Of a stretch of DNA of 23,000 nucleotides, positions 13,650-23,000 are shown piece after piece; within the stretch, counting starts at the first letter, position 1; each line of letters opens with the position of its first letter. This DNA is from a virus. Made by a program: the position numbers and the translations under genes. The stretch is taken from positions 1 through 23,000 of the IMG/VR virus record IMGVR_UViG_3300048023_000067. One strand, written 5' to 3'. The notes beneath the pieces were generated by a model. That model was not told where the DNA came from. It did no database searches and saw nothing but the letters and a program-made list of their open reading frames with translations.

Positions 13650-16646
13650 ATGGCTATTAAAACAAACCAAGATCCAGCGGATCTATTGGCAGCTGATACT
13701 AAATCAGGCATAATTGATATGCAAAAAACTGCAAACAATAAACAAAAAAACTCTGATTTAGTTCAAGTTGCTTCACTTTCTAATATTGTAAATACAGTAA
13801 ATAAAGTTGTTAAAGAAGGAGCTGAGGGTGCAACAAAGAAAAAAGCCAAAGATCCAGTAGTACCAAAAAATGTAGAGACTGTTGAAGAAGCTATAACATC
13901 TGTTAATAAATCTAAAGAAATATTAGATGAAGGTGATACAACTTTAAAAGGTTTTGAAAGTTCAGATGATATTATTAGTAACTTAAAAACATTTACTGAT
14001 GATATAGAAACACCAATAAACAAAGTTACTACAGCTGAAAGTAAAGCTGGGGCTAATGAAGAAATGGGTGCAATTCTTAACATGAGTAAGAATTGGAATA
14101 AAGATAATACTATGTTTACTGCATCTCAAGTTGTGGCTGCAAAACAAAGTCTAGTAAATTCTTCAGAAACATTAAAAAAAATAGCTTTAAAAATAAATAG
14201 TGGAGATGACAGTTCTGCTACATTATTTCTGTTTAGAGAACAAATAGCACGGCATGCATCTATAGTTCAAACTTACAAACAAGGTAGAGCTAACGTAGCA
14301 AGAGCTTTAAATGCATTTAAGATACCTGGTGATTATGTTGGTAGCCAAGCTAATTTTGAACAATTGGTAGTTGAAGAATTAGGTGGCTCTACAGCTGCTA
14401 AAATGATGGCTGAGTCTATTTTAGATCCTAAAAAATCTTTAGCAGATATTAATGATTTTGCTTCAAAAACATGGGGTAGCAAAACGTCAGATAGTGTTAT
14501 GGAAATTTATATGAATGGTTTACTTTCATCACCTCGTACACAATTTAAAAACACTTTTGGTAATGCGTTTTACCAAGCATGGAAATTACCAGAAACATTT
14601 GCTGCTGCATCTATAAATAAATTAGAAGAAGGTATAAAATTTTCTGGCAGTAAAATTCCTATTATAAAAAATGCAAATTATTTTAAAACACCAGCTCAAG
14701 GTGTAGCCTTTGAACAATTTTTTGCTCGTGCATATTCTTACAGTTACAGTTGGAAAAAAGCATTTGAAGCTGCTGCTATTGCTGTGCGTGAAGGCCCTAG
14801 TGTTGATAAATTAGAAATATCTCAATATCAAAAAAAGACTATAGCAGCTGAAACTTTTGGTTTTGACTCTAATTCATCTTTAGGTTTTGGAATAGATGTT
14901 TTAGGCAAAGCAATAAGGATGCCAGGTACAGCTTTAGTGTGGGGTGATGAATTTTTTAAAACTATGGCTAAGTATTCTGAAGAAGCAGATTTAGCTGTGC
15001 AACATGCAATGGATTTACAGAAAAAAGGTTTTGATGATGAATATATTAAAGAAGCTGTAACAGATTATATTTACACAAATCCAGTTGCATTAAAAAAAGT
15101 TGATGATGCAAAAAAAGAAATGGTGTTTCAAGAAGATTTAAGTTCTGGTTTAGCAAACACACAAAAATTAATTGGTGATATTAAAATAGGCAATTTTCCA
15201 GTTGCAAGAGTTGTAATGCCGTTTTTTAAAACACCAGTAAATATATTTAAAGCTGTGTATGATCGAAGTTATGGAGGAGTAGTTAAAGCTGGTAAACTAG
15301 GATTTGATACTATTTACTCAACTTTTACTGGCAGACCTTATACAGATTACGGCAAAAAATTTACAAGTGATCCACAGTTTAGAACTATGGAAATGGGTAA
15401 GTATTCTATGTCTGCTGGTGCATTTAGTTATGCTTATACGTTAAAACAAAATGGAAGTTTAACAGGCCCACCAGAACGTGATCCTAGAAAACGTGCTTAC
15501 CAAATGGATGTTTTAGGTATTCAACCACACAGTTTTGTTTTTTATGGGCCTAACTCAGATACAAGCAAACCTAAATTTGATGACAACGGTGTACCAAATG
15601 GTGATTTAAAATATGTTTCATATTTAGGTATAGAGCCATTTGGATCATTTTTTGGTATTACAGCAAACTGCATTGATTTGATGGAAAACTCAGACAACAC
15701 TGCATTTAGAGATAATATGGCAACATCGTGTGCTGTAGCTGGTGCAATGTATTTTAAGGAAATACCATTTTTACACGGCATATCTTCTATCTATGAAATG
15801 TTAGGTTTGTCTAGTTATAGTGAAGATCAACTGGTTAATTTTGAAAAAATTATAAAAAATTATTCTAAAACTATAGCTCCGTTTAGTGGGATTGCTCGTG
15901 ATGTAGAACGAATATTTGACCCACAAAAAAGATATATTGGGCCAGATTATGAATTAGATTTGGAACCATTTTTAAGAAACGATAAAGGTAAAATTGTTTT
16001 TAACGATCAAGGTGTAGGAAAACCAAATCCTAATTATGGTTATCCAAAAGATCCATCTATGGTTACTGGTGCAAAAAGTTTTGCAAACAATGTTTTCAGC
16101 ACTTACCCAGTAGCATCATCATCTTTTGCTCCTGTATATGATTATGAGTTTAAACCAGTTGATGGAAGCAATGGAATGAAACAAGGTATTGGTCAAAGAA
16201 TTTACAATGCATTTGTTCCATTTACCTACAAACAAAGTGCTGAAATTAAACCTTATCAAGCAGATATATACAGACTGAATGTACCTGGATATTCAACTAT
16301 AAAAAAATATAAAGGATTAGATTTTAGTGATCGTCAATGGAGTATGCTAAATGAACGAGCTGGACAAGTTTTAGGAACAGGCATCAATAGAAATTTTACA
16401 TTTACGGAAGCATTAGACAGTTTGTATTCTGGTATAAGTGGTTCATCAAGAACATTTTTATCAAAAACTGGAAACACTGGAAGTAATGATGATTTAAGAA
16501 GGGCAACATTAACTGACATTAGAAGTAAATATTTAAAAATAGCTTTTGAAAGTTTAGCTGCTGAAGATGAAGAATTTTTTAACATGCAACAAGCAATTGA
16601 ACAAAGACAAGAATATTTAGAAACTAATCAATTATCGAGATTTTAA
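13650..16646 (+). CDS. Large internal virion/ejection protein (gp16-like, 998 aa)
   Basis: A 998-residue helical protein in the position of T7 gene 16, whose product leads ejection across the inner membrane. The N-terminal 150 residues are polar and Lys/Ser/Thr-rich. Residues 288-307 hold MNGLLSSPRTQFKNTFGNAF, a pattern (LLS-P-TQ-KN--GN) recurrent in large phage ejection/polyvalent proteins. Residues 523-529 give MPFFKTP, another element of that group. The C-terminal part has several aromatic, Gly-Pro-rich segments. Hydrophobic stretches near 640-690 may be membrane-active. No lysozyme or transglycosylase motif was found. The block is AT-rich (sample lines 27-28% GC). The C-terminal residues are charged and helical. 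Confidence 0.82.
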   Translation: MAIKTNQDPADLLAADTKSGIIDMQKTANNKQKNSDLVQVASLSNIVNTVNKVVKEGAEGATKKKAKDPVVPKNVETVEEAITSVNKSKEILDEGDTTLKGFESSDDIISNLKTFTDDIETPINKVTTAESKAGANEEMGAILNMSKNWNKDNTMFTASQVVAAKQSLVNSSETLKKIALKINSGDDSSATLFLFREQIARHASIVQTYKQGRANVARALNAFKIPGDYVGSQANFEQLVVEELGGSTAAKMMAESILDPKKSLADINDFASKTWGSKTSDSVMEIYMNGLLSSPRTQFKNTFGNAFYQAWKLPETFAAASINKLEEGIKFSGSKIPIIKNANYFKTPAQGVAFEQFFARAYSYSYSWKKAFEAAAIAVREGPSVDKLEISQYQKKTIAAETFGFDSNSSLGFGIDVLGKAIRMPGTALVWGDEFFKTMAKYSEEADLAVQHAMDLQKKGFDDEYIKEAVTDYIYTNPVALKKVDDAKKEMVFQEDLSSGLANTQKLIGDIKIGNFPVARVVMPFFKTPVNIFKAVYDRSYGGVVKAGKLGFDTIYSTFTGRPYTDYGKKFTSDPQFRTMEMGKYSMSAGAFSYAYTLKQNGSLTGPPERDPRKRAYQMDVLGIQPHSFVFYGPNSDTSKPKFDDNGVPNGDLKYVSYLGIEPFGSFFGITANCIDLMENSDNTAFRDNMATSCAVAGAMYFKEIPFLHGISSIYEMLGLSSYSEDQLVNFEKIIKNYSKTIAPFSGIARDVERIFDPQKRYIGPDYELDLEPFLRNDKGKIVFNDQGVGKPNPNYGYPKDPSMVTGAKSFANNVFSTYPVASSSFAPVYDYEFKPVDGSNGMKQGIGQRIYNAFVPFTYKQSAEIKPYQADIYRLNVPGYSTIKKYKGLDFSDRQWSMLNERAGQVLGTGINRNFTFTEALDSLYSGISGSSRTFLSKTGNTGSNDDLRRATLTDIRSKYLKIAFESLAAEDEEFFNMQQAIEQRQEYLETNQLSRF

Positions 16647-16649
16647 ACT

Positions 16650-18611
16650 ATGACAATATCAACCACAACATTACTAAACAGCTTCTCAGGTAACGGATCT
16701 GTTGTAGATTTCACATATACCTACCCTATTAACTCAGCATCAGAATTGCTGGTTATAATTAAAACAGACGCAACTGGGGTTGAAACTACAAAAACTTTAA
16801 CAAGTGATTATACCGTTGCACTGGCTGGTGACTCTGGTGGAACTGTTACGATGGGAACTGCCCCAGCATCAGGTGAAACATTATTCTTAATTAGAAACAC
16901 AACTAAAACACAAGGCACTGATCTTATTGAAAACGATCCGTTTAGTGCTGAAGGCTTAGAAGATAGTTTTGACAATCTGCAAATGCAGATCCAAGAAGTT
17001 AGTAACGCAGTTGATAGATCATTTAAAGTATCAAAAACTAACAGCATTACGACATCAGAAATCACAACGTCAGCTGCTGATCGTGCTAATAAAATCTTAG
17101 CATTTGATGCATCAGGTAACTTAGATGCAACTGCTTATAACAATTTAGATACCGTTGCTGAATTAACAGATACAACTATTACAAGTCCTGGTGATAACGA
17201 AGTCCTGGCATACGACAGTTCTAGTTCCAAATGGATTAACCAAACGGCAGCAGAAGCTGGCCTAGTTGCAACTGGTGCTGTTACTGGTATTACATCATTG
17301 CTTGCCACTGATATTAAGATTGGTGAAGATAACGAAACTAAAATAGATTTTGAAACTGCTGATGAGATACATTTTTATGCAGCTAATGCTGAACAAGCAT
17401 ATGTAGCTGATGGTGTCTTTGGGCCACAAACAGATAGTGATGTTGATTTAGGTACAACGTCTGTACGTTGGAAAGATGCTTATATTGATAGCATTACAAC
17501 TACTGGGAATATTACATCTGCTGGTACTGTATCATTTGGCAGCATTACAGATGGAACAATTACAGCTACTGCATTTGTAGATGAAGATGACATGAGTTCT
17601 GACTCAGCAACTTTGATCCCTACTCAGCAATCAGTCAAAGCATACGTTGATGCTAAAAAAGCTGACATGCAATTTGTACTAGAAGATGGTGATGGCACTG
17701 AAGTACAGATTGTAAAAGATAGTGAAGTTAAGTTTGTTGAAGGTGGTGGTATAGATATTAACTGGACTGACACGTCAACTGGTTCTGATGCAGATCCATT
17801 TGATCTGACATTTGCCATAGACTCAACCGTTGCTACCTTAACTGGTTCACAAACATTAACCAACAAAACATTAACGTCACCAGTTTTTAATACGGGTGTT
17901 AGTGGTACGGCTGTCAAAGACGAGGACAACATGGCCTCAGACTCTGCTACTCACCTTGCAACCCAACAATCTATTAAGGCATACGTTGATGCTGTTACAA
18001 CATCATTAAATGCACAAGACCTGGATGTATCTGATGGATCATCTGCTATTGCAATTGATCTTGATTCAGAAACATTAGGCATCTTAGGTGGCACAGGATT
18101 AACGTCAGCTGCATCTGGCAACAACGTCACATTATCTGTTGATGCATCACAAACACAGATTACAGCTGTTGGTACAATTGGAACTGGTGTTTGGCAAGGT
18201 ACAGCTATTGCGTCAGCTTACATTGCAGCAGATGCAATCACGGGTGCTAAAATAGCAGACGATGCTATTAACAGTGAACACTATACTGATGGTTCAATTG
18301 ATACAGCTCACATAGCTGACGATCAGATCACACAAGCTAAAGTTGCTAACGATGCAATCGGTGCTGATGAACTGGCAAGCAATGCAGTTGTTAATGCAAG
18401 TGTAGCATCAGGAGCTGCAATAGCATTTTCTAAGATGGCTGACTTAACAGCATCACGAGCATTGGTATCAGATGGTAGTGGTGATGTATCTGTAAGTGCA
18501 GTGACATCAACTGAAATAGGTTATTTAGATGGAGTAACATCCTCAGTACAAACACAACTCAATGACAAAGCATCTCAAGGATTTGCCGTTGCTATGGCAA
18601 TTGCTTTGTAA
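16650..18611 (+). CDS. Tail fibre with T7 gp17-type N-terminal anchor
   Basis: The 653-residue protein begins with a clear T7 gp17-like attachment domain over about residues 1-130. This includes LLNSFSGNGSVVDFTYTYP, then a long beta-helix-like section ending FKVSKTN. The shaft has two copies of a 25-residue DEDxM-SDSA-TQQS-KAYVDA repeat (residues 311-335 and 424-448) and a 'NLTNKTLTSP'-like element. Residues about 527-600 have repeated ADDAI/AKIADD segments, as in trimeric shafts. The end EIGYLDGVTSSVQTQLNDK resembles a short fibre tip. Expected function: trimeric fibre bound to the nozzle and responsible for, or carrying, receptor recognition. It starts three bases after the previous stop. 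Confidence 0.92.
   Translation: MTISTTTLLNSFSGNGSVVDFTYTYPINSASELLVIIKTDATGVETTKTLTSDYTVALAGDSGGTVTMGTAPASGETLFLIRNTTKTQGTDLIENDPFSAEGLEDSFDNLQMQIQEVSNAVDRSFKVSKTNSITTSEITTSAADRANKILAFDASGNLDATAYNNLDTVAELTDTTITSPGDNEVLAYDSSSSKWINQTAAEAGLVATGAVTGITSLLATDIKIGEDNETKIDFETADEIHFYAANAEQAYVADGVFGPQTDSDVDLGTTSVRWKDAYIDSITTTGNITSAGTVSFGSITDGTITATAFVDEDDMSSDSATLIPTQQSVKAYVDAKKADMQFVLEDGDGTEVQIVKDSEVKFVEGGGIDINWTDTSTGSDADPFDLTFAIDSTVATLTGSQTLTNKTLTSPVFNTGVSGTAVKDEDNMASDSATHLATQQSIKAYVDAVTTSLNAQDLDVSDGSSAIAIDLDSETLGILGGTGLTSAASGNNVTLSVDASQTQITAVGTIGTGVWQGTAIASAYIAADAITGAKIADDAINSEHYTDGSIDTAHIADDQITQAKVANDAIGADELASNAVVNASVASGAAIAFSKMADLTASRALVSDGSGDVSVSAVTSTEIGYLDGVTSSVQTQLNDKASQGFAVAMAIAL
17580..17993 (+). 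repeat. Two copies of a 25-residue fibre repeat
   Basis: Copies at 17580-17654 and 17919-17993, within the gp17-like fibre. Aligned by eye they match at 19 of 25 residues (shared D-E-D, M, SDSAT, TQQS, KAYVDA). This repeat appears in many marine phage fibres and tail proteins and probably forms a trimeric shaft element. Between them lies the more variable segment with GGIDINWTDTSTGSDADPFD. Confidence 0.85.
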
Positions 18612-18629
18612 ATTTAATAAGGAGAAAAC

Positions 18630-18968
18630 ATGGCTCAAGACTTTAGGAGACATTTAAACGATGATCTACCAACATCACATCACGACACTAATTCGTTGTT
18701 GTGGACTGGTGGAGATTACGATGCAATCATAAGCTGCCGATTGTGTAATATTACAACAGCAGAAGTAACTGTTGATGTATATATTAGAAATTCAAGCACT
18801 GATTATTACCTTGCAAAAAATACTGCAATTACACCTGGAGGTTCATTAGAATTAATCCAGGGTGGTTCTAAAATTGTATTGGCTAATGGTGATGTGTTGT
18901 ATGCAATTTCAAACACAGCTAGTGCAGTAGATGCCGTAACATCAGCAGTAGATACAATTAGTTCATAG
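18630..18968 (+). CDS. Small beta-rich structural protein (112 aa)
   Basis: 112 residues with a polar N-terminus (RRHLNDDLPTSHHDTNSLLW) and a likely beta-sandwich (YDAIISCRLCNITTAEVTVD, then a VLANGDVLYAIS strand). The pattern CRLCNITTAEVTVDVYIR, TPGGSLELIQGGSKIVL and NGDVLYA is of a type seen in fibre-neighbouring small proteins of marine phages. It may cap or link fibres. Function unassigned. A strong AAGGAGA precedes it with the same spacing as the gene at 20952. No transmembrane segment. Confidence 0.8.
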   Translation: MAQDFRRHLNDDLPTSHHDTNSLLWTGGDYDAIISCRLCNITTAEVTVDVYIRNSSTDYYLAKNTAITPGGSLELIQGGSKIVLANGDVLYAISNTASAVDAVTSAVDTISS

Positions 18969-18976
18969 GATATAAC

Positions 18977-19156
18977 ATGGCAAAAATGGAACAAGTCGGT
19001 GGGATGATGTATATTGGTTCAGCACCTGAATCAGAAACCATCCCTGAACACGACAGTCAAGTCGATCTCAGTCAAACAATAGGCAATGCAGTTCTTGCTG
19101 GCCCTATCACGTTTGCTGCAACAATAACAATAACTGGAACGGTAGTAATAGTATGA
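18977..19156 (+). CDS. Small protein ending in a hydrophobic beta tail (59 aa)
   Basis: A 59-residue reading frame with MYIGSAPESETIPEHD, a linker, and a C-terminus LAGPITFAATITITGTVVIV. The 'N-A--AGPIT-------T-TG-VVIV' ending is familiar from small structural proteins of marine phages that accompany fibre genes. It starts eight bases after the previous stop, with a weak upstream AGGA (18967-18970). Its stop overlaps the start of the next fibre gene by four bases (ATGA), which strongly supports its reality. The hydrophobic end could form beta strands rather than a membrane helix because it alternates Thr and Ile. Function unknown. Confidence 0.75.
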   Translation: MAKMEQVGGMMYIGSAPESETIPEHDSQVDLSQTIGNAVLAGPITFAATITITGTVVIV

Positions 19157-20103
19157 GTTTAGAATTAGATGGTGTTAACGGTATAATTAAAAACACTACA
19201 AGTGATGGTGATGTAACGATCAAAGGTAATGATGGAGGTAGTGAAATATCTGCACTAACACTTGATATGTCAGACGCTGGTACAGCTACTTTTAATCACG
19301 ATATAAAATTAAATGATAGTGGGGCATTACGTCTTGGAGACGATGGGGATGCTGAAATTTATCACAATGGTAGTGCAACTGTCGTAAGAGAAGCAAGTTC
19401 AGGTAATCTTGTTCTTGCTGGAAACGATGTTCAAATTACTGGTGGTTCAATGTTAGAAACACACATTGATTGTAATAATAATGGTTCAGTTGATTTATAT
19501 CACAACAATGTAAAGAAATTTGAAACAACATCTTCTGGTGTAACAGTTACAGGAGCTACATATTCAAGTGGTGGGGTTTTTAACACAGTTAATAATAGTT
19601 TATTAATTTTTGGTGGTGGTAATGCAGGTAATGTTGGCTCTAACTTAACTATGTATGGTGGTGCTGATGGTAGTGCAGGAACATTTAGATTTAGAAATGC
19701 AACAACCACACATTTTAATATTGCTGGTAATGGAGATCTTACTGGTACTGATACAAGTATTGGATCTATTTCTGATTCAAGATTAAAAGAAAACATAACA
19801 GATTTTACTTATGATGTTGTTAAATTTAAACAGTTCAAACCAAAAACTTTTGATTGGAAAAATCCAGCAGAACATAATGGTAGAACAGATAACAGAGGTT
19901 TTATTGCACAAGAAATTGCTGAAATAGATGACTATTGGACAGATCAAATTACTATAAATTCTGATACAGAAGATGCTAAATTAATTAGTGCAGATTCTGA
20001 TGGTAATCATAATTCATATTCTTTAAAACTTGGTAAAAAAGACGCAATGTATATTTCAGTTATTCAACAATTAATTACAAGAATAGAAACATTAGAAGGA
20101 TAA
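19153..20103 (+). CDS. Tail fibre/spike with C-terminal S74 chaperone domain
   Basis: A 316-residue fibre protein. Residues 1-130 hold repeated beta-strand units typical of marine phage fibres (LELDGVNGIIKNTTSDGDV, ALRLGDDGDAEIYHNGSATV, GNLVLAGNDVQITGG). From about 204 the C-terminal domain begins: ISDSRLKENI, with Ser207-Asp208 as the expected dyad at the cleavage point, then F-PKTFDWKN, NRGFIAQEIAEI, and a closing helix YISVIQQLITRIETLE. This is the S74 intramolecular chaperone, which helps the trimer fold and then cleaves itself off. The coat part and chaperone differ in base composition (sample lines 47% and 23% GC). Confidence 0.88.
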   Translation: MSLELDGVNGIIKNTTSDGDVTIKGNDGGSEISALTLDMSDAGTATFNHDIKLNDSGALRLGDDGDAEIYHNGSATVVREASSGNLVLAGNDVQITGGSMLETHIDCNNNGSVDLYHNNVKKFETTSSGVTVTGATYSSGGVFNTVNNSLLIFGGGNAGNVGSNLTMYGGADGSAGTFRFRNATTTHFNIAGNGDLTGTDTSIGSISDSRLKENITDFTYDVVKFKQFKPKTFDWKNPAEHNGRTDNRGFIAQEIAEIDDYWTDQITINSDTEDAKLISADSDGNHNSYSLKLGKKDAMYISVIQQLITRIETLEG

Positions 20104-20106
20104 CCT

Positions 20107-20931
20107 ATGAGTGAAATAAGAGTCGATACCATATCAGAACGTACCAATGCAAACGGTGTAACGATAGATGGTCTTACTATTAAAGATGGTGGGATTACAG
20201 CTACAACTGGTGCTATTGTTTTAAACGAAGCCAGTGCCGACCTAGATTTTCGAATAGAAACCAATGGTAATTCTAAAATGTTTTTTGTTGATGGTGGTAA
20301 TGATGCAGTTATCTTTAATGGTAACTCTAGTGATTATGAAGCCTCATCACAAATGGTTCAAATTCATAATGCAGGATTACACATAACATCTGGATATGGC
20401 ATTCAAGGTGGAGTAAACGCTGACAGAGCACAAATAGGATTAACATCTGGTAGTGGTGGTAATGTTTTATTTAAAGTTAATAACTCAGAAGTTGCAAGAT
20501 TTACTTCAGGTGGTTTAGCCATTGGTGGCACAGGTGCAGCTAACACACTCGATGATTATGAAGAAGGTACATGGACTATAGTTAATGGTGCAGTTAATGG
20601 TATTACTTATCAAGTATCTTCATCAAGTGGAGTTACCTATACAAAAATCGGTAGACAAGTAACTGTAACAGGAACTTTAGCTTATGGCGGACACACAGCA
20701 GACAATAATGCAACTTACATAGGAAACTTACCTTTTACTTCTGCATCTGGAACTAATTTTATTGGTAAATGTTCCATTAACGATAATACACTTGATGGTG
20801 TTGGAGTTTTATTAGCTGGTGGAGTTACTTATTTAAAATTGTTTAAAGCTGGTAGTGGTACATTTGATTATGTCACAAGGTCAGAATCAGCAAATCAATC
20901 AATTAGTTTTACTATTACATATCACGTTTAA
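20107..20931 (+). CDS. Tail fibre-like protein, shares N-terminal module
   Basis: A 274-residue protein without membrane segments. Residues 1-70 form an N-terminal module almost the same as in the 21212 gene, with a run of 16 identical residues (DGLTIKDGGITATTGA). The middle has beta-strand units (LFKVNNSEVARFTSGGLAIGG). NTLDDYEEGTWT at 146-157 is a well-known motif near the receptor-facing tip of marine phage fibres, followed by YTKIGRQVTVTGTL. The C-terminal 110 residues are Gly/Ser-rich strands ending FTITYHV. It begins four bases after the previous stop. No ribosome-binding site is strongly evident; coupling is likely. A receptor-binding role is likely; the receptor is unknown. Confidence 0.82.
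   Translation: MSEIRVDTISERTNANGVTIDGLTIKDGGITATTGAIVLNEASADLDFRIETNGNSKMFFVDGGNDAVIFNGNSSDYEASSQMVQIHNAGLHITSGYGIQGGVNADRAQIGLTSGSGGNVLFKVNNSEVARFTSGGLAIGGTGAANTLDDYEEGTWTIVNGAVNGITYQVSSSSGVTYTKIGRQVTVTGTLAYGGHTADNNATYIGNLPFTSASGTNFIGKCSINDNTLDGVGVLLAGGVTYLKLFKAGSGTFDYVTRSESANQSISFTITYHV
20110..20316 (+). repeat. Duplicated fibre N-terminal module, copy 1
   Basis: Encodes residues 2-70 of the 20107 fibre. Aligned by eye with residues 3-71 of the 21212 fibre, 46 of 69 positions match. The DNA has diverged far more at silent positions, so the duplication is old or the copies were acquired separately. The module probably anchors the fibre to a common partner. Confidence 0.85.
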
Positions 20932-20951
20932 TATTTTATAAGGAGAAAACA

Positions 20952-21203
20952 ATGGCAATAACAAAAGAAAAAGAAATAGCAAAGATAGAAGTAGTTGGAG
21001 AGTATAAAGCTGTGCAAGTAAGAACTGATACTGTTATCAAAGAAGATGATGCAGAAATATCACGTTCCACTCACAGACATGTATTACACCCAGATATGGA
21101 TATATCTGCTGAAGATGCAGAAGTACAAGCAGTAGCCAATGCTGTATGGACTGATGCTGTAAAAGCTGCCTGGACTACATTTCAAGAAAACCAAACAATT
21201 TAG
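20952..21203 (+). CDS. Small fibre-associated protein (83 aa)
   Basis: An 83-residue protein between two fibre genes. It has a charged, beta-type N-terminus (KEIAKIEVVGEYKAVQVRTD), a central ISRSTHRHVLHPDMD element, and a C-terminal helix (AVANAVWTDAVKAAWTTFQ). Small proteins with this pattern lie beside fibre genes in marine phages; a fibre chaperone or adaptor role is inferred. A strong AAGGAGA site lies upstream. The next fibre gene begins eight bases after its stop. No enzymatic motif is visible. Confidence 0.78.
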   Translation: MAITKEKEIAKIEVVGEYKAVQVRTDTVIKEDDAEISRSTHRHVLHPDMDISAEDAEVQAVANAVWTDAVKAAWTTFQENQTI

Positions 21204-21211
21204 GATAACCA

Positions 21212-22459
21212 ATGACAAGTACAATTAAAGTTGACACCATTGCTGAACATACATCAGGGGGTGGTGTAACTGTTGACGGACTGACTATCAAAGATGGTGG
21301 AATAACGGCAACGACTGGGGCTACAGTATTTAATGAAGCATCTGCTGACATAGACTTCCGAGTAGAATCTAATGCAAATGCAAATAGATTTAAAATAGAT
21401 GGTGGTGATGATGTTGTTGTCATGGGAACTGGAACAGTTGAAGATTCTATATACGGAGCTAAACCAGCACTTCAATTAACTGGAACTGATTTTAATACTT
21501 CTGCATTTTCAATTATTAGAAATGCTGCTGATGCAAATTCACCTAATTTAATTTTTGGTAAAAGTCGATCTGCTGATGGAAACACAGTTGTTCAAGATGG
21601 AGATGACTTAGGTAATATTACCTTTGCTGCTGCTGATGGTACAGATCAAAATAATACTGCTGCTAGAATTTATGCTGAAGTTGATGGAACACCTGGAGCT
21701 AATGATACACCTGGCAGACTTGTATTTGCAACAACTGCTGATGGTGCTAATTCTGCAACAGAGAGAGTTAGAATCACCAATGATGGAAAAATAGGAATCG
21801 GGACTTCTTCGAGTCCAGCGGCTAAAATTCATCTTGATATTGGAACAGATAATCTTGGTTTATATATAAACAGTACAGACGCAACAGCTGGATTTGCTTT
21901 AGCTGATAATGGTGGTTCAATTAATTTAGCCACAACTAGTTCTGGTGCTTTTAGGGTTATGACTGGTGGTAGTGCCAATACAGCTGCTGATGGTAGTGCT
22001 GTTTCAATGTTAATAGATGCAAGTGGTGCAGTAACCAAGCCACTACAACCAGCTTTTTCTGTTAAACCTTCATCAAATCAAACTAACCTAGGTAATAATG
22101 ATACTATTGCTTTTGGTACAGAAACTTTTGATCAAAATGCAGACTTTGCATCTAACACATTTACTGCTCCAGTAACTGGAAAATATTTATTAAGTTTTAT
22201 GGTAAGACTTGATGATATAGCAGAAAATTCTGATTATGCTGTAGTTGATATAGTAACCTCTAATAGAGAATATTTATTTTTTTATTCACCAGGTACAAGT
22301 GATGAAGCAATAGGTTTTCATACTTTTTCAAATACTTTGTTATGTGATATGGATGCAAATGACACAGCAAAACTAACTTATCAAGAAGCTGGAGGCACAA
22401 CTGGTCAAGCTGACGTAAGTGCAAACAATTCAAGATTTACTGGGGTTCTAATATGCTAA
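21212..22459 (+). CDS. Tail fibre-like protein with C-terminal C1q-like head
   Basis: A 415-residue protein in four parts. Residues 1-75 are the module shared with the 20107 gene. Residues about 128-200 form a peptide-type shaft (DGDDLGNITFAAADGTD, then TPGRLVFATTADG, ERVRIT, GKIGIGTSSS), common in marine phage fibres. A Gly/Ala/Thr linker follows. Residues about 279-415 look like a C1q/TNF-like beta jelly roll, with PAFSVKPS, FGTETFDQNADF, NTFTAPVTGKYLLSFMVRL and a closing FTGVLIC. Such a trimeric globular head would suit a receptor-binding tip. The N-terminal module is GC-richer than the head (sample lines 48% versus 27%). Confidence 0.86.
   Translation: MTSTIKVDTIAEHTSGGGVTVDGLTIKDGGITATTGATVFNEASADIDFRVESNANANRFKIDGGDDVVVMGTGTVEDSIYGAKPALQLTGTDFNTSAFSIIRNAADANSPNLIFGKSRSADGNTVVQDGDDLGNITFAAADGTDQNNTAARIYAEVDGTPGANDTPGRLVFATTADGANSATERVRITNDGKIGIGTSSSPAAKIHLDIGTDNLGLYINSTDATAGFALADNGGSINLATTSSGAFRVMTGGSANTAADGSAVSMLIDASGAVTKPLQPAFSVKPSSNQTNLGNNDTIAFGTETFDQNADFASNTFTAPVTGKYLLSFMVRLDDIAENSDYAVVDIVTSNREYLFFYSPGTSDEAIGFHTFSNTLLCDMDANDTAKLTYQEAGGTTGQADVSANNSRFTGVLIC
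21218..21424 (+). repeat. Duplicated fibre N-terminal module, copy 2
   Basis: Encodes residues 3-71 of the 21212 fibre, matching copy 1 at 20110-20316 (46 of 69 aligned residues). Conserved core: VDTI, DGLTIKDGGITATTGA, NEASAD and DFR. The rest of the two proteins is unrelated by eye. Confidence 0.85.
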
Positions 22460-22476
22460 CGAAACAATTAACCTTA

Positions 22477-22484
22477 AAGGAGGT
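22477..22484 (+). promoter_or_regulatory. Full-length Shine-Dalgarno site AAGGAGGT
   Basis: AAGGAGGT is a complete anti-16S-tail match, five bases before the ATG at 22490. The other genes in the window mostly use AAGGAGA. A strong site suggests high initiation and fixes the start of the following small gene. Confidence 0.8.
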
Positions 22485-22489
22485 AACAC

Positions 22490-22783
22490 ATGGCTGAACA
22501 TAAAAAAGAAATAACATTAACAGATCTTCAACAAAAAATTCTGTCTAATGATTTATATAACGACACAGATAATGCTGGTGTAGATAAATGGATCCAAGAT
22601 GCAGTTGATGGTAAGATCAGCAACTGTTGGAAACGTATGCAACGTGAATGGACTGATAAGTTGATGAATGATGATTCATTTACAGATCCTATTCCATCTA
22701 ACCAGGCTGACTTTGTAACATTGGTCACAGCACGAGAAGATTATAAAAATCGTAAAGCTCGTGATGATGCATCAGCAGAATAA
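22490..22783 (+). CDS. Hypothetical 97-aa helical protein
   Basis: A 97-residue, mostly helical, charged protein with an N-terminal ITLTDLQQKILSNDLYND. The middle is VDKWIQDAVDGKISNCWKRM and the C-terminus is FVTLVTAREDYKNRKARDD. The pattern K--NCWKRM--EW is one I associate with small proteins of marine phages found near fibre and lysis genes, but I know no function for it. Start fixed by the AAGGAGGT site. The next gene begins 19 bases after it. A soluble accessory role (fibre assembly or lysis timing) would be a guess. Confidence 0.75.
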   Translation: MAEHKKEITLTDLQQKILSNDLYNDTDNAGVDKWIQDAVDGKISNCWKRMQREWTDKLMNDDSFTDPIPSNQADFVTLVTAREDYKNRKARDDASAE

Positions 22784-22801
22784 CATGGAGCTTGATTTCT
22801 A

Positions 22802-23000
22802 ATGTCTGAACTAGACAACAAGTTAGCCATCACGGAGATCCGTGGGGAACTTAAACTAATCAATCAAAAATTAGACACTCTGGTGTCAAATCATATTTGG
22901 CATTTGAACCGTGATGTTGGAGTCTTAACTAAGATTTTAATAACGGTATCAACAATCTTGTTTTCAGGTGTCGTAACTTTACTAATCAAAACATTTTTTA
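22802..23000 (+). CDS. Holin-like (XhlA-type) membrane protein, 3' truncated by window edge
   Basis: 66 residues are visible and the reading frame continues past the window edge. The N-terminal half is a charged amphipathic helix (ITEIRGELKLINQKLDTLV), followed by NHIWHLNRDVGVLTK. A hydrophobic helix runs from about residue 43 to 64 (LITVSTILFSGVVTLLIK). This coiled-coil-then-membrane-span layout resembles the XhlA-type small holin-like proteins and holds a T7 gene 17.5-like position after the fibre genes. GGAG at 22788-22791 is a plausible ribosome-binding site. Identification as holin is inference from topology and context. Confidence 0.6.
   Translation, partial: MSELDNKLAITEIRGELKLINQKLDTLVSNHIWHLNRDVGVLTKILITVSTILFSGVVTLLIKTFF

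Follow-up and report, generated by a model that had tools for sequence, protein, structure and literature searches.

Small partner genes and variable heads in the tail fiber cassette of an HTVC010P-type pelagiphage

The cassette and its described counterparts

Small genes that sit directly behind a phage fiber gene and serve its end are familiar from the fiber assembly chaperones T4 gp38 and Tfa, and T2-type gp38 caps the fiber tip. We analyzed 23 kb of viral DNA (positions 1 to 23,000 of IMG/VR virus record IMGVR_UViG_3300048023_000067; here, the window) in which a gp17-type tail fiber gene is followed by further fiber-like genes and several small genes. The region probably encodes a multi-part tail fiber with exchangeable heads, each matured differently: one by an S74 chaperone and the others with the small proteins s83 and s22490. 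The small genes, which the first-pass annotation had called merely interleaved, are the most informative part of the cassette, and three of the four each track one kind of fiber end.

The window portal is 63% identical to the HTVC034P and Skadi portals. Its gene order, judged from the sizes and positions of open reading frames (ORFs), runs terminase, portal, capsid, tail tube A and B, internal virion proteins, and fiber; the HTVC010P-type pelagiphages (HTVC034P, HTVC035P, Skadi, and Lederberg) share the order terminase-portal-capsid-tail-internal proteins-fiber. Portal homology and gene order together place the window in this group by sequence, and since such relatives are HTVC010P-type pelagiphages, we infer SAR11-type ocean bacteria as the host. 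The closest relative by internal protein is locus L006 (80%). Variable fiber genes and C1q proteins in a variable region behind the fiber have already been described for these phages by Mizuno (2014, PMC3909814) and in the Skadi report (PMC10504331); C1q variants behind the tail fibers of cryoconite phages, reported in PMC7468147, agree with exchange. HTVC034P and Lederberg differ from the window in having YIG proteins, where the cassette of this fragment has P1N and N-module proteins instead.

Another close counterpart is the set of anchor-branched receptor-binding proteins of Klebsiella phages, G7C, and K1-5 (PMC6872550), in which one anchored protein is joined by further receptor-binding proteins that lack an anchor and of which two have the same N terminus. 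The window likewise holds an anchored first protein and anchor-less further ones. It differs in that a T4gp10-like docking domain was not recognized in the anchored fiber with Pfam alone and a C-terminal tag and a small protein are found instead; two of the three anchor-less window proteins have an N-terminal module in common, which may correspond to the shared N-terminal peptide of the described system or may be shaft. The general phenomenon is known, and what is new is the role of the small genes, namely the pairing rules and the tag. Neither turned up in the literature searched, where no paper contained the motif strings or PHROG numbers or had "donor strand" together with "phage tail fiber," both weak tests of novelty. 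As far as we found, the route by which anchor-less fiber proteins reach the virion in these abundant ocean phages is not established. The cassette comprises the following features.

16650-18611, + strand: anchored gp17-type fiber (the stalk), 653 amino acids; anchor at residues 3 to 122 (16656-17015)
18579-18608, + strand: C-terminal tag of the stalk, GFAVAMAIAL, alternating large and small residues
18630-18968, + strand: s18630, 112 amino acids, partner gene of the tagged stalk; matches phrog_26609 weakly; many relatives
18977-19156, + strand: s18977, 59 amino acids, carrying a YIG motif close to the N terminus and ending in GPITF...TITGTVVIV; its profile finds relatives
19153-20103, + strand: P1, 316 amino acids; its own N-terminal module (residues 12 to 45) and a C-terminal S74 chaperone
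20107-20931, + strand: P2, 274 amino acids; N-module (residues 2 to 70) and E head (residues 148 to 274; 20548-20928)
20542-20577, + strand: conserved motif NTLDDYEEGTWT at the start of the E head; DNA conservation peak
20952-21203, + strand: s83, 83 amino acids, partner gene of the E head (phrog_6228, function unknown); many relatives
21212-22459, + strand: P3, 415 amino acids; N-module (residues 3 to 72), shaft, and C1q head (residues 271 to 411; 22022-22444)
22490-22783, + strand: s22490, 97 amino acids, partner gene of P3-type C1q heads; many relatives

The N terminus of the stalk matches the tail and tail fiber families PHROG 1640 (residues 1 to 122) and 13893 (residues 1 to 159), and a PDB search aligns its first 125 residues with tailspike Dpo31/Dpo36 (E value, 1.3e-10). 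The Pfam T7 tail model PF03906 was not matched, nor was any other Pfam model anywhere in the stalk at E values up to 1. On these sequence grounds we assign the 16650 fiber a gp17-type N-terminal tail anchor. It is the only window ORF that matches the anchor profile; P1, P2, and P3, intact ORFs that had been described as three further fiber-like proteins without the anchor, indeed do not match it. Their C-terminal domains differ as had been proposed (S74 in P1, NTLDDYEEGTWT type in P2, and C1q in P3), and small genes at 18630, 18977, 20952, and 22490 are interleaved with them. The suggested shared N-terminal module holds for P2 and P3 (55% identity, underlain by a direct repeat of 159 nt at 72%) and fails for P1, which begins with a different module.

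Fiber heads and their partner genes

To find relatives of the cassette, we grew ten profiles from window segments, searched them against all ORFs of 293 sequences (the window, two window copies, metagenomic loci, and phage records), and counted gene neighbors. Scans with P2, the s18630 family, and s83 contributed their best 80 loci each, and these loci are partly redundant. The main counts come from loci of scans not made with the gene under test, and ORFs with too little upstream or downstream sequence were dropped beforehand. Duplicates were removed from the identity set of 143 E-s83 pairs, the counts of YIG motifs in the next ORF, the 114 unique C termini, and the anchor-profile set; they were kept in the forward and reverse E-s83 counts, the counts of tags upstream of s18630, the strict-tag count, and the C1q-s22490 count. 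The window copies (L001 and L002) were left out of the 143-pair identity, YIG, and anchor-profile analyses and were counted within the "other" or "rest" groups of the E-s83, tag-s18630, and C1q-s22490 forward counts.

E heads pair with s83. Among E ORFs of P2-found loci that have 600 nt or more of downstream sequence, 58 of 69 precede s83, the gap being 1 to 115 nt, and none of the control ORFs in any group does (C1q, 0/81; S74, 0/46). The reverse also holds: s83 lies directly behind an E ORF in 70 of 73 cases in s83-found loci and in 68 of 73 in P2-found loci. The pair is present in 12 of the 13 phage records examined, out of 67 with an s83 match (one is an uncultured fosmid, and the exception is phage DSL-LC05); 12 of the 14 E ORFs in these 13 records precede s83. 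The records with the pair are podo-, sipho-, and myoviruses of SAR11, OM43, Roseobacter, and cyanobacteria. Ribosome sites are stronger in the partner genes (97 of 143 s83 genes versus 31 of 112 E ORFs), as would suit proteins required in excess. Although s18630 and s83 are of different families, their ribosome-site leaders (18612-18630 and 20933-20951) match at 95% over 19 nt.

HNH endonuclease genes lie between E and s83 in L231 and L238, two of the three exceptions among the 73, and in L023. Endonuclease genes inserted exactly between a fiber gene and its partner were seen at L023:1840-2388, L231:958-1494, L238:3430-3966, and L299:3582-3986; they are of the HNH kind with a NUMOD4-like motif or, in HTVC100P, endonuclease VII. 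That such genes do invade the junctions raises the possibility that the small genes themselves are passengers, homing endonuclease-like or regulatory, linked to fiber genes without acting on them, and linkage by itself is no proof of interaction. However, s18630, s83, and s22490 each track one kind of fiber end, s18630 and s83 doing so in several virion types, and none of the three has a nuclease family match in Pfam, PHROG, or NCBIfam searches; s83 is moreover predicted to be a well-folded single domain. We consider passengers improbable.

Searches with P2 found nothing in Pfam at E values up to 1 and nothing in PHROG or NCBIfam at E values up to 0.01. Its C terminus (residues 119 to 274) belongs to a large unnamed family with a DDYEEGTW motif, and residues 148 to 154 are 92 to 100% conserved across the 143 E-s83 pairs. 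In a single-chain AlphaFold model, the C-terminal 100 residues reach a predicted local distance difference test score (pLDDT) of mostly ~80 to 94, and the N-terminal 110 about 62. The modeled E head matches Noumeavirus NMV_189 (Z score, 13.5), the C terminus of the Dettilon tailspike (residues 666 to 797; Z score, 12.5; root mean square deviation, 2.5 over 123), and the receptor-binding protein gp15 of Listeria phage PSA (Z score, 9.1; root mean square deviation, 2.8 over 99). Lactococcal phage receptor-binding proteins and reovirus sigma1 score between 6 and 8, a range (below 8) that may reflect a common arrangement. The E sequence profile finds the same Dettilon tailspike entries (E value, 8e-5). 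The E head is thus predicted to adopt a viral receptor-binding-head fold.

The model of s83 has a pLDDT of 96.3, with three long strands and two helices. By sequence, s83 matches nothing in PDB at E values up to 1; by fold, its best hits (Foldseek E value, 0.069; VIA-align Z score, 3.9) establish neither a new nor a known fold, and two uncharacterized phage proteins in BFVD match at E values of ≤0.001. The window small genes resemble those for T4 gp38 and Tfa in sitting directly behind fiber genes and differ in that s83 has no Pfam match to those chaperone families, the only weak hit being GH43_C (E value, 0.11).

The other heads are handled differently. P1 matches Peptidase_S74 (PF13884; 42.2 bits against a cutoff of 22) at residues 207 to 258 of 316 (19771-19926). 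Inspection by eye shows SDSRLK, a putative S74 catalytic stretch, in which we take the Ser and Lys to be the catalytic residues. P3 matches C1q (PF00386; 30.8 bits against a cutoff of 23.7). C1q ORFs precede s22490 in 27 of 41 cases in P3-found loci and in 5 of 50 in other loci, 2 of these 5 being from the window and its copy L002; s22490 does not follow E ORFs (0/167) or S74 ORFs (0/47). This pair is weaker and restricted to the P3 type, other C1q ORFs preceding other genes.

Exchange of heads and the link to the anchored fiber

DNA similarity along the window peaks at s83, at s22490, where the fiber gene ends and s18630 begins, in the N-modules, and at the DDYEEGTW motif, with a mean of 16.5 loci over 20500-20599. 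It is near zero in the P1 and P2 heads, while the C1q head retains some (4 to 9 loci); the profile is biased at s83, by which 80 loci were chosen, and at the C1q head (32 chosen by P3). At the protein level, median identity across the 143 pairs is 0.29 for E and 0.50 for s83, and s83 is the higher in 8647 of 10153 comparisons. Given the selection by s83, we repeated the comparison on P2-chosen loci. Median identity to the window was 0.74 for the DDYEEGTW segment (residues 136 to 158), 0.21 for E residues 186 to 271, and 0.50 for s83, and s83 exceeded E in 1403 of 2016 comparisons within the set. Between loci, E residues 186 to 271 are ~20% identical and s83 44 to 73% (medians). In 106 locus pairs, s83 is 85% identical or more; of these pairs, 78 have this part of E below 35% and 5 have it at 85% or above. 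In locus L213, s83 is 93% and E 26% identical to the window counterparts. E heads thus change between conserved flanks. Head exchange between lineages is strongly supported by these comparisons.

A broad or switchable host range had been proposed for the cassette; switching within a phage found no support. Positions 16600 to 23000 of the window, a fragment, contain no long inverted repeats, the longest pair being 26 nt at 77%. Inversion-based phase variation, considered and set aside, thus has no support in the window, no search aimed at a reverse transcriptase or recombinase having been made.

The conservation of s83 also bears on a further explanation, that s83 and s22490 cap the head as adhesins and themselves bind receptors. 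They occupy the place expected of such caps, directly behind the fiber gene, but adhesins should vary fastest, and in the comparison, which covers s83, the small protein is conserved and the head variable. That pattern favors a part in assembly or structure over one in binding the receptor, and we think adhesin caps quite unlikely.

Relatives combine in one protein what the window encodes separately. Locus L216 has a single 1009-amino-acid fiber with a gp17 anchor, the P2/P3 N-module, and an E head, and its s83 is 88% identical to that of the window. Residues 697 to 870 of this fiber align with the P3 shaft at 53% identity (181 positions). Its E head closely resembles that of a P2-like protein without an anchor in L229, with 74% identity across 153 positions. 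In L006, the anchor, N-module, and S74 likewise occur in one protein. Such fusions suggest that the separate window proteins belong to one fiber. The proposed connection with the gp17 fiber, as branches or alternative tips, is supported to this extent: the L216 fusion and the head shared by L216 and L229 link the distal parts to it by sequence. The 151 unique 5′-complete E ORFs include 10 with a YIG-type module and 12 with the N-module at the start; 6 have the N-module internally. As the N-module is also internal in long fibers, it may be shaft.

A frame-broken one-piece fiber was considered as the origin of P2 and rejected, the window genes being complete with stops between them. The HTVC120P fiber (L130:1532-4983) resembles a one-piece fiber with a frame change between gp38 and gp40, compared with Bylgja gp13; since the separate E protein of HTVC120P thus resembles part of a one-piece fiber that has been broken, this phage was not counted among the split cases.

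The stalk tag, s18630, and the assembly of the fiber

The stalk has no recognizable head and ends in the tag, in which large residues stand at positions -9, -7, -5, -3, and -1 with small ones between; position -7 is free in our pattern yet is large in 96%. The tag patterns were composed after inspection of the C termini. The strictly tagged ORFs are followed by the s18630 family in 100 of 100 cases, a count that, for this reason, measures specificity and not discovery. The strict pattern misses ATALAIALG ends, and 41 ORFs upstream of s18630 fail it. Among 114 unique C termini upstream of the s18630 family, 71 are GFAIAMAIAL-like and 25 end in IALG. In loci found with the s18630 family, a tag-like end lies upstream of 77 of 82 s18630 genes. 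Several relatives of s18630 are annotated as putative structural or virion structural proteins; by sequence, its best PDB hit has an E value of 0.013, which we judged to be chance. In HTVC100P, an endonuclease VII gene intervenes between the tagged stalk and s18630.

The gene behind s18630 follows a pattern as well. The ORF directly after it contains [YF][ILVM]G in its first 24 residues in 79 of 89 tagged-stalk loci, against a background of 67 of 2176 and 6 of 24 at untagged s18630 loci. All 7 phage records examined, of 14 matched, have the tag, s18630, and then a protein with a YIG-type start. The stalks of HMO-2011, HTVC103P, and CRP-9 start unlike gp17 (by eye) and yet carry the tag. After s18630, HMO-2011 has a long run of small fiber-like genes (L293:5001-10258), two of which begin with MPYIG. 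Many marine phage proteins (for example, L293:5338-5787) start with a MAYIG/MPFIG module, which is a homolog of the first domain in the T7 gp17 anchor.

This last relationship, seen in the longer YIG proteins (hhalign, 97.7%; E value, 1.4e-12), bears on whether the extra proteins are attached to the stalk at all. The HMO-2011 YIG protein matches Pfam Phage_T7_tail at an E value of 4.4e-5 with 23.7 bits, just below the cutoff of 25.2. With a module homologous to the anchor's first domain, the first protein after s18630 in many relatives could bind the same tail site, and the extra proteins could then dock directly on the tail (or head) as several independent fibers per virion. The window fits this poorly, since P1, P2, and P3 fail the anchor profile and the 59-amino-acid s18977 shows only the YIG motif; we hold direct docking to be possible but rather unlikely.

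We favor the multi-part fiber. The gp17-type protein would form the anchored stalk, its last ten residues serving as a tag that s18630 handles or caps, and P1, P2, and P3 would be distal parts on the virion, attached to the stalk through the tag and s18630. The P1 head would be matured by its built-in S74 chaperone, with putative self-cleavage. The P2 and P3 heads would be matured with s83 and s22490, respectively, acting as assembly partners and not adhesins. Heads would swap among phages while the N-modules, the DDYEEGTW motif, and the partner genes are kept, giving lineage-specific host-recognition sets. The observations beneath this reading are the ORFs, domains, and pairings, the variable head with its conserved partner, the same head on anchored and anchor-less proteins, and the predicted fold.

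Several observations weigh against this picture. E-s83 pairing fails for 11 of the 69 E ORFs in P2 loci: an endonuclease gene intervenes in L023 and a 571-amino-acid ORF in L040, and no s83 was found there for the other nine. C1q-s22490 pairing is not universal, with 14 of 41 missing and 45 of 50 elsewhere without s22490. Eighteen of the 114 unique C termini upstream of s18630 are neither GFAIAMAIAL-like nor IALG, and in the other loci only 33 of 55 s18630 genes follow a tag-like end, the misses including PFAIALG-type ends outside the pattern and a number of s18630 copies whose upstream ORF ends in RR or GGR. Distances of E and s83 correlate (weakly in the metagenomic sets, r = 0.19 and 0.24, and clearly in 12 phage records, r = 0.62, each above all 999 permutations; for the whole E head in all 143 pairs, r = 0.07, reached by 19 of 999), so exchange is not free. 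Finally, 5 of the 151 unique 5′-complete E ORFs have a full gp17 anchor, and 118 have no profile-recognized start.

A more specific and tentative version, which we find possible without preferring it, is a plug and socket. The C-terminal strand of the stalk would be donated into s18630, linking interchangeable distal proteins with YIG or anchor-like modules; heads would bring, or insert before, their conserved partner gene, and marine phages of different virion types would have this arrangement in common. Strand donation is an idea taken from the residue pattern of the tag. Chaperone-usher pili use donor-strand plugs, and by analogy only, the stalk's terminal strand resembles these in its five alternating large hydrophobic residues; it differs in lying at the C terminus of a phage fiber and in having a putative acceptor.

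The pairing of head type and small gene would allow prediction from sequence of which "hypothetical" small genes are fiber partners, which proteins share one fiber, and where heads have been exchanged. Both the head-partner pair and the combination of tag and small protein offer small targets for direct laboratory tests. A genome scan with the s18630 alignment returned two loci. In the SAR11 single-cell genome SAG-MED28, a 275-kb contig contains a gp17-like fiber (by eye) ending in GFGIAMAIAL together with s18630 (L300:1922-3327), possibly from a prophage or a co-sorted phage.

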